The notes beneath the pieces were generated by a model. The model was given only the letters and a program-made list of their open reading frames with translations. It had not been told where the DNA came from and did not search any database. From Gammaproteobacteria bacterium (GTDB taxonomy: Bacteria > Pseudomonadota > Gammaproteobacteria > Pseudomonadales > Pseudomonadaceae), in the NCBI GenBank assembly GCA_023475025.1, contig JAMCWB010000004.1:1-64000 (forward strand): a DNA stretch of 64,000 nucleotides, in the 5' to 3' direction. A program made the translations under genes and the position numbers. The first letter of the stretch is position 1, and each line of letters starts with the position of its first letter. Positions 57,396 to 64,000 of this stretch are shown in pieces.

Positions 57396-57804
57396 TCTGC
57401 AACATCCCAGCTCCTGGGGCCATGCCTTACCTACAGCGATAACGCTGGCGCGGCAGAATCGGGCACAACTGACGCTACTCAGTGTCACGCCCCACTTTGG
57501 TACCCCGCTGGTGGCCGGCTATTTCCCGCAGGATTATGCCGAAGAAACCCGCAAGGCCTTGCATGAACGCCTCCGGGTATTTGTCGAAAGCCATTTGCCG
57601 GCAGACTTGCAGAGTGATTTCCTGATCGCCGGCGGCAAGGTCTGGGAAGCCGTTCTCGAGAGTGCCGAGAAACTCGGTGTGGACCTGATCGTTATGGCCT
57701 CGCACAAGCGACCCAAACTGGAGCGCATGCTGCTGGGCACCAATGCCATGCGCGTGGTGCAGCAGGCACCACAATCCGTGATGATCGTGCGCAACCCGCC
57801 GTGA
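57361..57804 (+). CDS. Universal stress protein (UspA family)
   Basis: MLKHLLLPVDLQHPSSWGHALPTAITLA...GVDLIVMASHKRPKLERMLLGTNAMRVVQQAPQSVMIVR; overlaps TRAP permease 3' end. Confidence 0.93.
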   Translation: MDMLKHLLLPVDLQHPSSWGHALPTAITLARQNRAQLTLLSVTPHFGTPLVAGYFPQDYAEETRKALHERLRVFVESHLPADLQSDFLIAGGKVWEAVLESAEKLGVDLIVMASHKRPKLERMLLGTNAMRVVQQAPQSVMIVRNPP

Positions 57805-57836
57805 GTGGGGTATCATCCCCGCACAACCGGAATTGA

Positions 57837-57892
57837 CGACAATGGCGTCGCGCTCTGCGGGCCCTGAGGCTGGCGGACGTGGCGCCTTTTTT
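57837..57892 (+). promoter_or_regulatory. Candidate ANTAR-type leader: hexaloop hairpin overlapping an intrinsic terminator, upstream of nasS
   Basis: CGAC-AATGGC-GTCG (A1/G4 hexaloop, 57837-57850); terminator GGCGTCGCG...CGTGGCGCC-TTTTTT (57844-57892); nasS ATG at 57904. Confidence 0.5.
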
Positions 57893-57903
57893 GATGGAAC
57901 ACC

Positions 57904-59118
57904 ATGACTGATCACCACCCGCCACTACCCGCCAACCTCGCCTGGGCCGATGGCAGCGATGCACCGGAAAAAAGCCTGCTGAATATCGGCTTTATGCCAC
58001 TGACCGACTCGGCCTCCCTGATCGTGGCGGCAACCCAGGGTTTTGGCCAACCCTATGGGCTGAGCCTGCAGTTGCGACGCCAGTCCTCCTGGTCTGCGTT
58101 GCGCGACCGCTTGCTCACCGGTGAACTGGATGCCGCTCAGGGACTTTATGGTCTGACCTACGGCATGCATCTGGGACTAACCGCCCAGCAGACACCCATG
58201 ACGGTGCTTATGGGGCTGAACCAGAACGGGCAAAGCATCCACCTGTCCAAAGCCTTGCTGGAGGCTGGCGTTACCGATGGCATCTCACTTGCGCGCCATA
58301 TCCGGCAATCGCCACACCGCCTGACCCTGGCGCATACCTTTCCCGGTGGCACCCATGCCATGTGGCTGCATTACTGGCTGGCGACGCACGGCATTCATCC
58401 AATGCGCGACGTGGATATGCAGGTGGTACCACCGGCACGCATGGTCGAGCATATGCAGGCCGGGCGCATTGATGGTTTTTGTGCCGGTGAACCCTGGGGC
58501 GCCCAGGCAGTCAGTGAGGGCCTGGGCTTTACAGTTACCACCAGTCAGGCCATCTGGCCGAATCACCCGGAAAAAGTGCTGACCTGCACCCAGGCATTCG
58601 TCGATCAGTATCCGAACACAGCACGCGCTCTGATCATGGCAGTGCTGGATGCCAGTCGTTTTATCGATGCCGATGCCGCCAACCGCGACAGCACCGCACA
58701 ACTGATCAGTGGCGACGCCTTTCTGGCGACCCCGGCGGCCACCTTGCTGCCGCGCTTGCAAGGTGACTACAGCGATGGCCGTGGACAGCAATGGGTTGAT
58801 CAGCATCCCCTGCGTTTTTTTGCCGAGGGCGAAGTCAATCCACCCTACCTCTCTGATGGGCTCTGGTTCCTTACCCAGTTCCGCCGCTGGGGCTTGCTCA
58901 AGCAGGACCCGGATTACCTGGCAGTGGCGCAGCAAGTACAACAGCTGGATATCTACCGCGAAGCAGCCGCTGCACTGGGCATTGCCCTGCCATCCAGCCC
59001 GCTACGCGAGAGCCGCTTGTTCGATGGCAGCCTCTGGAATGGAACAGAGCCGGCCACCTATGCCGACAGTTTTCCCATTCAGGCTCGCAGCCCATTGACC
59101 AGACCGGAGCAGGATTAA
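57904..59118 (+). CDS. nasS: NasS-like nitrate/nitrite-binding regulatory protein (NrtA/CmpA family)
   Basis: SLLNIGFMPLTDSASLIVAATQGFGQPYGLSLQLRRQSSWSALRDRLLTGELDAAQGLYGLTYG; no signal peptide; followed by nasT. Confidence 0.92.
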   Translation: MTDHHPPLPANLAWADGSDAPEKSLLNIGFMPLTDSASLIVAATQGFGQPYGLSLQLRRQSSWSALRDRLLTGELDAAQGLYGLTYGMHLGLTAQQTPMTVLMGLNQNGQSIHLSKALLEAGVTDGISLARHIRQSPHRLTLAHTFPGGTHAMWLHYWLATHGIHPMRDVDMQVVPPARMVEHMQAGRIDGFCAGEPWGAQAVSEGLGFTVTTSQAIWPNHPEKVLTCTQAFVDQYPNTARALIMAVLDASRFIDADAANRDSTAQLISGDAFLATPAATLLPRLQGDYSDGRGQQWVDQHPLRFFAEGEVNPPYLSDGLWFLTQFRRWGLLKQDPDYLAVAQQVQQLDIYREAAAALGIALPSSPLRESRLFDGSLWNGTEPATYADSFPIQARSPLTRPEQD

Positions 59119-59121
59119 GCA

Positions 59122-59700
59122 ATGCGTATTCTGCTGATCAATGATACCGAGAAAAAAGTTGGTTACCTGAAAGCCGCACTGACCGAAGCAGGCTTTGATG
59201 TCGTGGCTGAATCCGGGCTGGCCATCGACCTGCCTGAGCGGGTCGCGGCCTGCACACCGGATGTCGTGCTGATCGACAGCGACTCACCCGGACGCGATGT
59301 CATGGAGCAGGTGTGCCTGCTGACCCGCGACCAACCGCGCCCGATCGTGCTCTTTACCGATGAGCATGATCCCGGGGTAATGCGCCAGGCGATCAGCTCC
59401 GGGGTCAGCGCCTACATTGTTGAAGGCGTCGACAGCAGCCGCTTGCAGCCCATCCTCGATGTAGCCATGGCGCGCTTTGAAACCGACCAGCAGTACCGCG
59501 CCGAAATTCAGGCCCGTGAGCAGCAGCTGCATGAGCGCAAACGCATCGAAAAAGCCAAAGGTCTGTTGATGACTATGAAAGGTTGCACCGAACCCGAGGC
59601 CTACACCCTGATGCGTCGGCAAGCGATGAGCCGCCAGCAGAAACTGATTGATGTCGCCGAACAGATCATTGCCATGTCCGATATGCTGGGTACCCTCTGA
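59122..59700 (+). CDS. nasT: ANTAR-domain response regulator NasT
   Basis: MRILLINDTEKKVGYLKAALTEAGFDVVAE receiver; ERKRIEKAKGLLMTMKGCTEPEAYTLMRRQAMSRQQKLIDVAEQII ANTAR. Confidence 0.95.
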   Translation: MRILLINDTEKKVGYLKAALTEAGFDVVAESGLAIDLPERVAACTPDVVLIDSDSPGRDVMEQVCLLTRDQPRPIVLFTDEHDPGVMRQAISSGVSAYIVEGVDSSRLQPILDVAMARFETDQQYRAEIQAREQQLHERKRIEKAKGLLMTMKGCTEPEAYTLMRRQAMSRQQKLIDVAEQIIAMSDMLGTL

Positions 59701-59719
59701 AGGCCTTGATCCTTGAGGC

Positions 59720-59735
59720 TGGCATGCTTCCTGCT
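59720..59735 (+). promoter_or_regulatory. Candidate sigma54 (-24/-12) promoter upstream of nasA
   Basis: TGGCATG-CTTC-CTGCT: GG-N10-GC spacing; about 12 nt before the first leader hairpin. Confidence 0.65.
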
Positions 59736-59747
59736 TTATTCATGGCA

Positions 59748-59784
59748 AGCAGCCAACGGCGGTTGCTGACCAGACAACGACGTC
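59748..59784 (+). ncRNA. ANTAR-target two-hairpin leader of nasA
   Basis: P1 AGCAGCC-AACGGC-GGTTGCT (59748-59767) and P2 GAC-AACGAC-GTC (59773-59784); both hexaloops have A1 and G4. Confidence 0.78.
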
Positions 59785-59833
59785 ACTCCCTGACCCGGAC
59801 CAGTTCCGGGGTGGGGGGTGGCGTTTTTTTTTT
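59781..59833 (+). terminator. Intrinsic terminator (attenuator) in nasA leader
   Basis: CGTCACTCCCTG(A)CCCGGA-CCAGT-TCCGGG(G)TGGGGGGTGGCG followed by 10 T; ~18 pairs including G-U with one A/G mismatch. Confidence 0.85.
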
Positions 59834-61107: not shown

Positions 61108-62757
61108 ATGGGCCTGCAGATACGCACTGACGAGGCCAGCGCCGCTGGCCCACGCAAAGACAATCAGGATGCCCTGCGCGTGGCTACGCCTGCGCCAGCA
61201 CTGGCAACCAGCAAGGGGCACCTGGCGGCACTCGCCGATGGTGTCAGCCAGTGCCGCGATGGTGGCCTGGCCGCCAGGGCAACCCTGCAGGCACTGGCGC
61301 TGGATTATTATTCAACGCCAGAAACCTGGTCGGTTACCCAGTCACTTGAGCGCTTGTTGAATGCGCACAATCGCTGGCTGCGCGCCAACGGCGGTGGCCA
61401 GCCTCTGTTGACCACCCTGAGCTGCCTGATATTGCGAGGACGGCGCTATACCCTGGCGCACATTGGTGATTGCCGGGTCTACCTGCTGCGTGATGGACGC
61501 CTGCAACGACTGACCCAGGAGCACGTATGGGAACAGCCGGACATGCAGCATGTACTCAAGCGTGCCCTGGGTCTGGATGAGTACCCGCTGATTGATTACC
61601 TGGAAGGTGAACTGGAAGCCGGTGATTGTTTTTTGTTGCTCAGCGACGGCGTCTGGGGACACCTCAGTGATAGTGACATTCTGAGCTGCCTGCACCAGAG
61701 CGAACCCTGCAAGGAGCTGGTCAGCCGTGCTTATGCGGCAGGCAGTGAAGACAATGCCAGCGCCTTGCTGATCAGCCTTGACGCCCTGCCAAATGCCAAT
61801 CTGGACGATGTGCTCGGACCAGTCGACGACTATGCCGTACCGCCCAGGCTGAAAGCCGGTCAGCTCTTTGAAGGCTGGCAGGTGCAAGGATTGGCACACA
61901 GCTCACAGCAGTCGCTGTGCTATCAGGTCTCCGATAGCGGGGGCCAACCCTGGCTGTTGAAGACCTTGCCGCCCAACCAAACCGATATCGCCAAGGCTGG
62001 CCGCGAACTCCTGCAAGAGGAATGGTTCTTGCGCCGGGTTGCCAGCCAGTCGGTGCCCGAGCTGCATCCGCTGCCTGAACGCAAGCACCTCTATCTGGTG
62101 ATGCGTGATTATTCCGGTCGCACCCTGGCAGATGCCCAGGCCAGCGAAGGACTCTGGTCGTTGGCGCAACTGCAGCAGCGGGCACCGGCCCTGATCCATG
62201 CCATGGGACTCTTGCATCGGCGCAACCTGATCCACCGCGACATCAAGCCAGACAATGTGCACATCGATAACGATGGCACCCTGCGACTGCTCGATTTTGG
62301 TCTGGCCTGGTGTCCCGGGCTGACCGATTGGCAGCCTGGCTTGCCCGCCGGCACGCCGAGCTATATGGCACCCGAGGTGTTTCAGGGTGCCGAACCCGAC
62401 CCCCAGCAGGATATTTACAGCACGGGTGTCACCCTGTATTACCAACTCACCGGTCACTTTCCCTACGGTGAGATCGAAGCCTTCCAGCGTCCACGCTTTG
62501 GCCGTCCGACACCACCCAGCCGCTATCGTCCGGACCTGCCCAACTGGGTGGACAACTGGTTGCTGAAAGCGCTGGCGAAAGACCCCGAAGACCGCTACGA
62601 GACAGCCGAGGAATGGTTATTGGCCCTGGCACGTGGTGAGGACCTGCTGACCCCGCAAAAACCGCTCATTGAGCGCGAACCGCTGCTGGTCTGGCGAACG
62701 CTGGCGCTGGTTTCGCTGGGCATCAACCTGGCTGGTGCGATTGCCTGGCTGTACTGA
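61108..62757 (+). CDS. Bifunctional PP2C-type phosphatase / Ser-Thr protein kinase with C-terminal TM helix
   Basis: PP2C: RKDNQDALRV, ALADGVSQCRDGG, AHIGDCRVYLLRDG, LLLSDGVWGHLSD; kinase: HRRNLIHRDIKPDNVHIDNDGTLRLLDFGLAW, GTPSYMAPE; terminal LVSLGINLAGAIAWLY. Confidence 0.94.
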   Translation: MGLQIRTDEASAAGPRKDNQDALRVATPAPALATSKGHLAALADGVSQCRDGGLAARATLQALALDYYSTPETWSVTQSLERLLNAHNRWLRANGGGQPLLTTLSCLILRGRRYTLAHIGDCRVYLLRDGRLQRLTQEHVWEQPDMQHVLKRALGLDEYPLIDYLEGELEAGDCFLLLSDGVWGHLSDSDILSCLHQSEPCKELVSRAYAAGSEDNASALLISLDALPNANLDDVLGPVDDYAVPPRLKAGQLFEGWQVQGLAHSSQQSLCYQVSDSGGQPWLLKTLPPNQTDIAKAGRELLQEEWFLRRVASQSVPELHPLPERKHLYLVMRDYSGRTLADAQASEGLWSLAQLQQRAPALIHAMGLLHRRNLIHRDIKPDNVHIDNDGTLRLLDFGLAWCPGLTDWQPGLPAGTPSYMAPEVFQGAEPDPQQDIYSTGVTLYYQLTGHFPYGEIEAFQRPRFGRPTPPSRYRPDLPNWVDNWLLKALAKDPEDRYETAEEWLLALARGEDLLTPQKPLIEREPLLVWRTLALVSLGINLAGAIAWLY

Positions 62758-62776
62758 GCCAGGCAATCGCACCAGC
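62731..62776. repeat. Perfect 19-bp inverted repeat spanning the kinase stop codon
   Basis: GCTGGTGCGATTGCCTGGC-TGTACTGA-GCCAGGCAATCGCACCAGC. Confidence 0.9.
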
Positions 62777-62783
62777 GCGGTGC
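62769..62783. promoter_or_regulatory. Candidate NtrC-binding site upstream of nirB
   Basis: GCAC-CAGCGCG-GTGC, matching GCAC-N7-GTGC dyad spacing; about 85-100 bp upstream of the -24/-12 element. Confidence 0.6.
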
Positions 62784-62855
62784 AGACTGCTTCATCAGGG
62801 TGCGAAAAACCCGCCGCCTGAGCCTGCAAACCCTTGAATCCTCAGGATTTTGAAG

Positions 62856-62872
62856 TTGGCACAAAGACTGCA
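62856..62872 (+). promoter_or_regulatory. Candidate sigma54 (-24/-12) promoter for nirB
   Basis: TTGGCACAAAGACTGCA: TTGGCAC...TGCA with exact GG-N10-GC spacing. Confidence 0.8.
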
Positions 62873-62905
62873 TTAATACTCTTAGCTAAGGCAGCTATTA
62901 CATAC

Positions 62906-62967
62906 AGTGCCATTGTCAACGGCGACAGTGCACTCCTGATCTGATCAGGAACCGGACAAAGGCGTCC
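62906..62967 (+). ncRNA. ANTAR-target two-hairpin leader of nirB
   Basis: P1 AGTG(C)CATTGTC-AACGGC-GACAGTGCACT (62906-62934); P2 GGAC-AAAGGC-GTCC (62954-62967); both hexaloops A1/G4. Confidence 0.85.
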
Positions 62968-62998
62968 TTACCGTGTGAACGGTGGGGACGCCTTTTTT
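62958..62998 (+). terminator. Intrinsic terminator (attenuator) in nirB leader, overlapping P2
   Basis: AAAGGCGTCCTTACCGT-GTGA-ACGGTGGGGACGCCTTTTTT. Confidence 0.92.
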
Positions 62999-63027
62999 GT
63001 TATGCGCTCAAGACTATGGAGCTCAGG

Positions 63028-64000
63028 ATGCAAAAGCTCAAATTGGTGATGGTAGGCAACGGCATGGCAGGGGTTCGTACCCTGGAAGAATTGCTCAAGC
63101 TGACGCCCGATATGTACGACATCACGGTGTTCGGGGCTGAACCGCACCCGAACTACAACCGCATCCTGCTTTCGCCAGTGTTGGCTGGCGAGCAGAATTT
63201 TGATGACATTATTCTCAACCCGCTGGACTGGTATGCCGACAACGGCATCACCCTGCACACTGGCCGCAAGATCGTCGAGATCGACCGCCGCAACTGCAAG
63301 GTGATCGCCGACGATGGCACCGAGGCAGAATATGACCGCTTGCTGCTGGCCACTGGCTCCAACCCTTTCATGCTGCCGATTCCCGGCAATGATCTCGAAG
63401 GGGTAATCGGCTACCGCGATATTGCCGATACCCAGCAAATGATGGACACCGCCAAGACGCACAAACATGCGGTGGTTATCGGTGGTGGTCTGCTCGGCCT
63501 GGAAGCGGCCAACGGTCTGATGATGCGCGGTATGGACGTGACCGTGGTCCACATTGGCGAATGGCTGATGGAGCGCCAGCTCGACCGTAACGCTGGCGAA
63601 CTCTTGCAACAATCGTTGGAAGAGCGCGGCCTGAACTTCCTGTTGCCACAATTTACCAGCGAACTCGTGGATGATGGTCAAGGCCGGGTCAAGACGGTGC
63701 GCTTCAAGGATGGTACTGAGGTACCTGCGGATCTGGTGGTCATGGCTGCCGGTATCCGGCCCAATACCGAACTGGCGGAAAGTGCGGGCCTTGCCTGCAA
63801 CCGCGGCATTCTGGTCAGCGATACGCTGCAGACATTTGATCCGAAAATCTACGCCATCGGCGAATGCGCCAGCCACCGGGGCATCGCCTACGGGCTGGTT
63901 GCCCCCTTGTTTGAGCAGGCCAAGGTCTGTGCCAATCATCTGGCCATGCTCGGCTATGGTCGTTACGAAGGCTCAGTCACCTCGACCAAGTTGAAGGTAA
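63028..64000 (+). CDS. nirB: Nitrite reductase [NAD(P)H] large subunit, 3' end beyond window
   Basis: MQKLKLVMVGNGMAGVRTLEELLKLTPDMYDITVFGAEPHPNYNRILLSPVLAGEQNFDDIILNPLDWY; ORF open to the window edge and absent from the supplied + strand ORF track. Confidence 0.95.
   Translation, partial: MQKLKLVMVGNGMAGVRTLEELLKLTPDMYDITVFGAEPHPNYNRILLSPVLAGEQNFDDIILNPLDWYADNGITLHTGRKIVEIDRRNCKVIADDGTEAEYDRLLLATGSNPFMLPIPGNDLEGVIGYRDIADTQQMMDTAKTHKHAVVIGGGLLGLEAANGLMMRGMDVTVVHIGEWLMERQLDRNAGELLQQSLEERGLNFLLPQFTSELVDDGQGRVKTVRFKDGTEVPADLVVMAAGIRPNTELAESAGLACNRGILVSDTLQTFDPKIYAIGECASHRGIAYGLVAPLFEQAKVCANHLAMLGYGRYEGSVTSTKLKV

Follow-up and report, generated by a model that had tools for sequence, protein, structure and literature searches.

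The nirB leader of a Halopseudomonas nas locus as a probable orthologue of the NalA (P11) attenuator

The leader preceding nirB in the window (the whole 64 kb stretch of DNA analysed here) is very probably an orthologue, in Halopseudomonas, of NalA (Rfam P11), a transcription attenuator dependent on the antiterminator NasT. It is almost certainly not new in kind, being an orthologue of a known Pseudomonas attenuator; the host genus of the window we infer to be Halopseudomonas. What is added to the known NalA is a middle hairpin, here named PX, a further leader before nasS and a set of natural losses. Directly established are the anatomy of the leader, the mutual exclusivity of two of its folds, their predicted order of folding, the conservation and covariation of its hairpins, and the loss of the attenuator alongside ANTAR genes.

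Anatomy of the nirB leader

All window features given below lie on the forward strand, apart from one palindromic site and one inverted repeat that are given without a strand. The first antiterminator hairpin, P1 (CATTGTC-AACGGC-GACAGTG, core 62911-62930, hexaloop 62918-62923), is extended by an outer AGTG/CACT pairing (62906-62909 with 62931-62934) with a bulged C at 62910. The second, P2 (GGAC-AAAGGC-GTCC), lies at 62954-62967, and both hexaloops, AACGGC and AAAGGC, are of the A1/G4 type. The intrinsic terminator follows at 62958-62995, a 17-bp hairpin whose arms read AAAGGCGTCCTTACCGT-GTGA-ACGGTGGGGACGCCTTT, with its U-tract at 62993-62998. Direct reading of the sequence and folding place P1, P2, the terminator and the U-tract exactly where the preliminary description had located them. 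The terminator 5' arm opens with ten bases (62958-62967) that also form the loop and 3' arm of P2, and on account of these common bases the two folds are mutually exclusive, as had been proposed; a fold switch is also predicted. The distance from the U-tract to the nirB start codon, given earlier as about 30 nt, was measured as 29 nt from the last U, with the ATG at 63028 and a GGAG sequence 7-10 bases 5' of it. The 5' part of nirB, encoding the assimilatory nitrite reductase, occupies 63028-64000, and the gene continues beyond the end of the window.

The two-hairpin module of the preliminary description is present with respect to P1 and P2; overlooked was the middle hairpin PX at 62934-62950 (TCCTG-ATCTGAT-CAGGA, with an alternative pairing of 7 bp and a 3-nt loop). 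PX occupies the P1-P2 linker of 19-23 nt and leaves 3 nt before P2. The nirB leader as a whole has a fold energy of -55.8 kcal/mol (z = -5.6 against shuffles). When the module was defined as an A1/G4 hexaloop hairpin followed 15-60 nt on by a second such hairpin, the loop of which starts a terminator, a search of the two strands of the 64 kb window found it a single time in total, and 200 dinucleotide shuffles of the window yielded no instance.

Promoter and upstream DNA

A sigma-54 promoter with -24/-12 boxes TTGGCACAAAGACTGCAT (GG-GC spacing 12) lies at 62856-62873 and is kept in the orthologous leaders, and transcription is predicted to start near 62883. The earlier start coordinate of the leader, 62856, thus delimits a region that does contain the leader; the position itself is in the promoter and not in the RNA. 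A scan for sigma-70 promoters gave no match, as expected with a sigma-54 promoter. The strandless palindrome, a putative NtrC-like enhancer site (GCACC-AGCGC-GGTGC, 62769-62783), is situated about 107 bp before the predicted transcription start. The pattern was also found upstream in two relatives (L013 and L010) and was absent in two others in which it was looked for (L001 and L016). As judged from these sequences, the sigma-54 promoter would be the one in use, and expression of nirB would require nitrogen limitation AND nitrate. A sigma-54 promoter has been reported for NalA (PMC3973561; PMC12830290).

Further upstream, 62726-62781 is taken up by a 25-nt inverted repeat (92% complementary, arms 6 nt apart), which spans the point where the kinase reading frame stops. 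The repeat overlaps the NtrC-like site with its 3' arm and is not followed by a U-tract.

Identity and comparison with known systems

The covariance model of Rfam P11 (RF00625) matches the forward strand at 62845-62992 with 73.4 bits, above the gathering score of 70. P11 we take to be NalA, the leader of nirBD, for which antitermination by NasT has been reported in P. aeruginosa and P. putida; the position of the match supports the equation. NalA is said to have been originally described by Romeo in 2012 and by Nie in 2024. In Pseudomonas, NasT is needed for nirBD expression and binds NalA, which has a sigma-54/NtrC promoter (reviewed in PMC12830290), and NalA also occurs in P. protegens (PMC3973561). 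In the search of the whole window against Rfam, P11 and narK (RF03032) were the only matches above threshold; the nirB leader itself scores 23.5 bits with the narK model, under the threshold of 43.2 bits.

The window leader resembles NalA/P11 of P. aeruginosa and P. putida in its place before nirB, its sigma-54 promoter, its terminator and the presence of nasT in the genome. It differs from them in PX, the loop of which has 7 nt in the window and in the close relative L013, whereas it is usually an A1/G4 hexaloop. The Rfam structure of P11 begins with promoter DNA and depicts P1 and the middle hairpin, while the P2 hairpin is not drawn. Both Rfam models, P11 and narK, start with a sigma-54 promoter (62845-62873 and 59719-59736 in the window), and the promoter geometry suggests that the 5' part of each model is probably untranscribed DNA.

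The narK RNA, represented in the window by the nasA leader, shares with the nirB leader a sigma-54-type promoter, an A1/G4 P1 and a P2 of the form GAC-[A..G..]-GTC that overlaps the terminator; unlike the nirB leader, it has no middle hairpin, and in the nasA copy of the window the linker is a short one of 5 nt. A literature search for the narK motif found no source paper. More broadly, the dual-hairpin ANTAR targets (eut for EutV, nasF for NasR and amiE for AmiR; PMC3369931) likewise have two A1/G4 hexaloop hairpins, the second being exclusive with a terminator. In EutV leaders, however, the linker is 5-12 nt, and one of 14 nt impaired induction (PMC3369931), whereas that of the nirB leader is 19-23 nt with a third hairpin inside. 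The nirB leader thus works like a dual-hairpin ANTAR target, in which the P1-P2 pair alone is atypical.

Folding and proposed mechanism

Stepwise folding of the growing transcript gave P2 a pairing probability of 0.98 at 62967 and 0.95 at 62986, falling to 0.03 at 62988, and the terminator reached 0.98 once the transcript extended to 62992. As the terminator is far stabler than P2 (-30.0 vs. -4.0 kcal/mol), P2 needs a holder, that is, a protein, within a synthesis window of about 20 nt. The ANTAR mechanism, in which a protein holds the second hairpin against the terminator, has been set out previously (PMC3369931).

Applied to the nirB leader, the mechanism would start with nitrogen shortage, upon which the sigma-54/NtrC-type promoter would initiate the leader transcript. 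P1, PX and P2 would fold first, and P2 would persist only up to the emergence of the terminator 3' arm. By default the 17-bp terminator would then capture the P2 sequence and transcription would stop. Nitrate or nitrite would free NasT from NasS, and the freed NasT would bind P1 and P2 at their A1/G4 loops, and possibly PX as well, keeping P2 in place and allowing readthrough into nirB. That the leader of the window binds NasT and responds to nitrate is what would be expected by analogy to Pseudomonas, in which experimental support for the orthologous leader has been described (PMC12830290).

Conservation of P1 and P2

The preliminary description had named orthologous leaders lacking A1/G4 hexaloops as an observation that would speak against an ANTAR target; in the alignment of 30 orthologous leaders, P1 has A1/G4 in all 30. 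Among these related leaders, four of the seven core pairs of P1 have changed on both sides and the stem of P2 is invariant. When the hexaloop of the best P1 stem was picked without any sequence rule, it conformed to A..G in 103 of 110 cases. The reading of the leader as an ANTAR/NasT attenuator, proposed earlier, is supported by this conservation together with the P11 match, the presence of nasS-nasT in the locus and the loss of the attenuator from genomes without an ANTAR gene.

The middle hairpin PX

PX was followed in 165 distinct leaders from Pseudomonas and Halopseudomonas loci, a few of which, such as L025 and L158, are not nirB leaders. The PX arms close a six-base loop in 117 of the 165, and these hexaloops have A1 in 113, G4 in 115 and both in 111 cases, so that most relatives have an A1/G4 hexaloop of the form ANNGAW. 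The changes at loop positions 1 to 6, counted on a tree constructed with the loop excluded, number 4, 20, 15, 2, 2 and 7, respectively, compared with 14-20 at the positions of the PX-P2 linker. The low counts indicate that positions 1, 4 and 5 are held, and positions 2 and 3 drift. Spacing is rather uniform as well: the loops of P1 and PX are 23 nt apart in 87 of 103 leaders, and those of PX and P2 18 nt apart in 96 of 117. In one group (g17) PX is absent from most members, and here 25-26 nt separate the P1 loop from the P2 loop.

Given that the P1-P2 linker is beyond the EutV range, PX probably bridges the gap or takes part in recognition. PX may be a third NasT contact; in the window lineage, with its 7-nt loop, it may be a mere spacer. 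A wider reading can be put forward only tentatively, as we consider it somewhat less probable than its negation: in both Pseudomonas and Halopseudomonas, the nirB leader would be an ANTAR target of three hairpins (P1-PX-P2), NasT would read the A1/G4 loop of PX too, and recognition would accordingly engage more than one dimer or a shared hairpin; the attenuator before nasS would provide positive feedback on NasT; and PX of the window lineage would have become a spacer after the loss of the six-base loop.

Leader parts and ANTAR genes across Halopseudomonas

Of 37 Halopseudomonas genomes surveyed, 22 have a P11 match, and ANTAR genes occur in precisely these 22, although the genomes are related and counts of co-loss are not counts of independent events. 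This nirB was found in 26 genomes, comprising the 22 with an ANTAR gene, all of which keep a P11-type leader, and four without one. In these four, nirB is 84-87% identical and the TGGCAC-type promoter is kept, and P2, the terminator and the leader U-tract are gone. For the remaining 11 of the 37 genomes, the matches listed include no nirB with more than 75% identity to that of the window.

It is conceivable, if rather unlikely, that the attenuator is served wholly or partly by a second ANTAR protein of the NIT-ANTAR (NasR) type and not by NasT alone. The genome of the window has two ANTAR genes and no more, one for NasT and one for a NIT-ANTAR nitrate sensor. The latter gene, on another contig, precedes a nasF-like gene, the leader of which has a terminator and a P2 (GGAC-AACGGC-GTCC) nearly equal to that of nirB. 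The NIT domain was assigned by a domain scan in the genome of the window and by similarity in the other genomes. In addition, eight of the 22 ANTAR genomes encode the NIT-ANTAR protein only, and all eight retain P2 and the terminator before nirB. Against NIT-ANTAR as the partner, however, the P1 A1/G4 hexaloop is unrecognisable in seven of these eight, and all of them have either lost PX or altered its loop, whereas P1 is kept in each of the 14 congeners that encode NasT; the leader of the window belongs to the NasT type and is situated inside the NasT locus. The eighth NIT-ANTAR-only genome (G031, 79% complete) has a 3-bp P1 with the loop ACAGGC. Six leaders of NIT-ANTAR-only genomes (L016-L021) were read for P1, and no convincing common hairpin was found. 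The nasF-like leader (L036, 1061-1190; about 176370-176500 of contig C59 of the same genome) has a sigma-54-type promoter.

Rfam gives the type of P11 as "Gene; Pseudomonas sRNA P11", and termination of the leader would yield a stable transcript only about 115 nt long, both of which are in line with a stand-alone small RNA that has a plain terminator and acts on other transcripts. As the main role this is very improbable and was rejected, considering the exclusive folds of P2 and the terminator, the fixed place before nirB, the A1/G4 loops and the loss in ANTAR-less congeners; a trans role for the terminated product is possible. A protein-free riboswitch for a small molecule such as nitrate or a cofactor, which the alternative folding of a leader ahead of a metabolic gene might suggest, is scarcely credible and was likewise rejected, since there is no conserved aptamer core, the sequence outside the hairpin loops, the PX arms and P2 varies freely, the above-threshold Rfam matches of the window are limited to P11 and narK, and the leader depends on ANTAR genes across the genus.

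The nas locus and its three leaders

The probable NasT-dependent attenuator before nirB belongs to a locus with the order nasS-nasT-nasA (MFS transporter)-phosphatase-kinase fusion-[leader]-nirB, in which nasS (57904-59118) encodes a nitrate/nitrite sensor of the NMT1_2 family and nasT (59122-59700) a receiver and ANTAR antiterminator, the likely trans-acting partner. The nasA leader (59719-59833; narK model, 48.3 bits, above the 43.2-bit threshold) comprises a sigma-54-type promoter (59719-59736), P1 (59748-59767), P2 with the loop AACGAC (59773-59784) and a terminator (about 59779-59825). The loop of its P1 (59755-59760) is AACGGC, confirming that it is common to the P1 hairpins of nasA and nirB.

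The two NasT-type leaders noted earlier, those of nasA and nirB, are therefore present, but the locus has three. The third, before nasS (about 57800-57892; fold z = -3.4), consists of a P1-like hairpin (57806-57821) with the loop UAUCAU, without A1/G4, a P2 (CGAC-AATGGC-GTCG, 57837-57850) that overlaps the terminator, and the terminator itself (57844-57886, U-tract to 57892). The arrangement is kept in relatives within Halopseudomonas and Pseudomonas, several of which have an A1/G4 P1 and some a sigma-54-type promoter. On the basis of this arrangement, nasST may be autoregulated via the attenuator before nasS; in a full-text literature search, autoregulation of nasST by attenuation was absent from the titles and abstracts of the results. 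Independent tuning of transporter and reductase, suggested previously from the presence of separate leaders, is not shown, because a single NasT would govern all three leaders, and those of nirB and nasA both have sigma-54-type promoters.

In one NIT-ANTAR-only congener (L016, G028:C201) the gene directly before the nirB leader has an end matching that of the uspA-like gene found ahead of nasS in the window. The sequence looks as though a deletion between the uspA-like gene and nirB had removed nasS-nasT-nasA-kinase.

Implications

The analysis gives a definite identity to an element still catalogued by Rfam as a small RNA. The closely related Halopseudomonas genomes with NasT, with NIT-ANTAR only or with neither form a compact natural experiment, revealing on which regulator each part of the leader depends. 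The conserved PX, in turn, poses a testable question, namely how ANTAR proteins read hairpins that are too distant for the EutV model.
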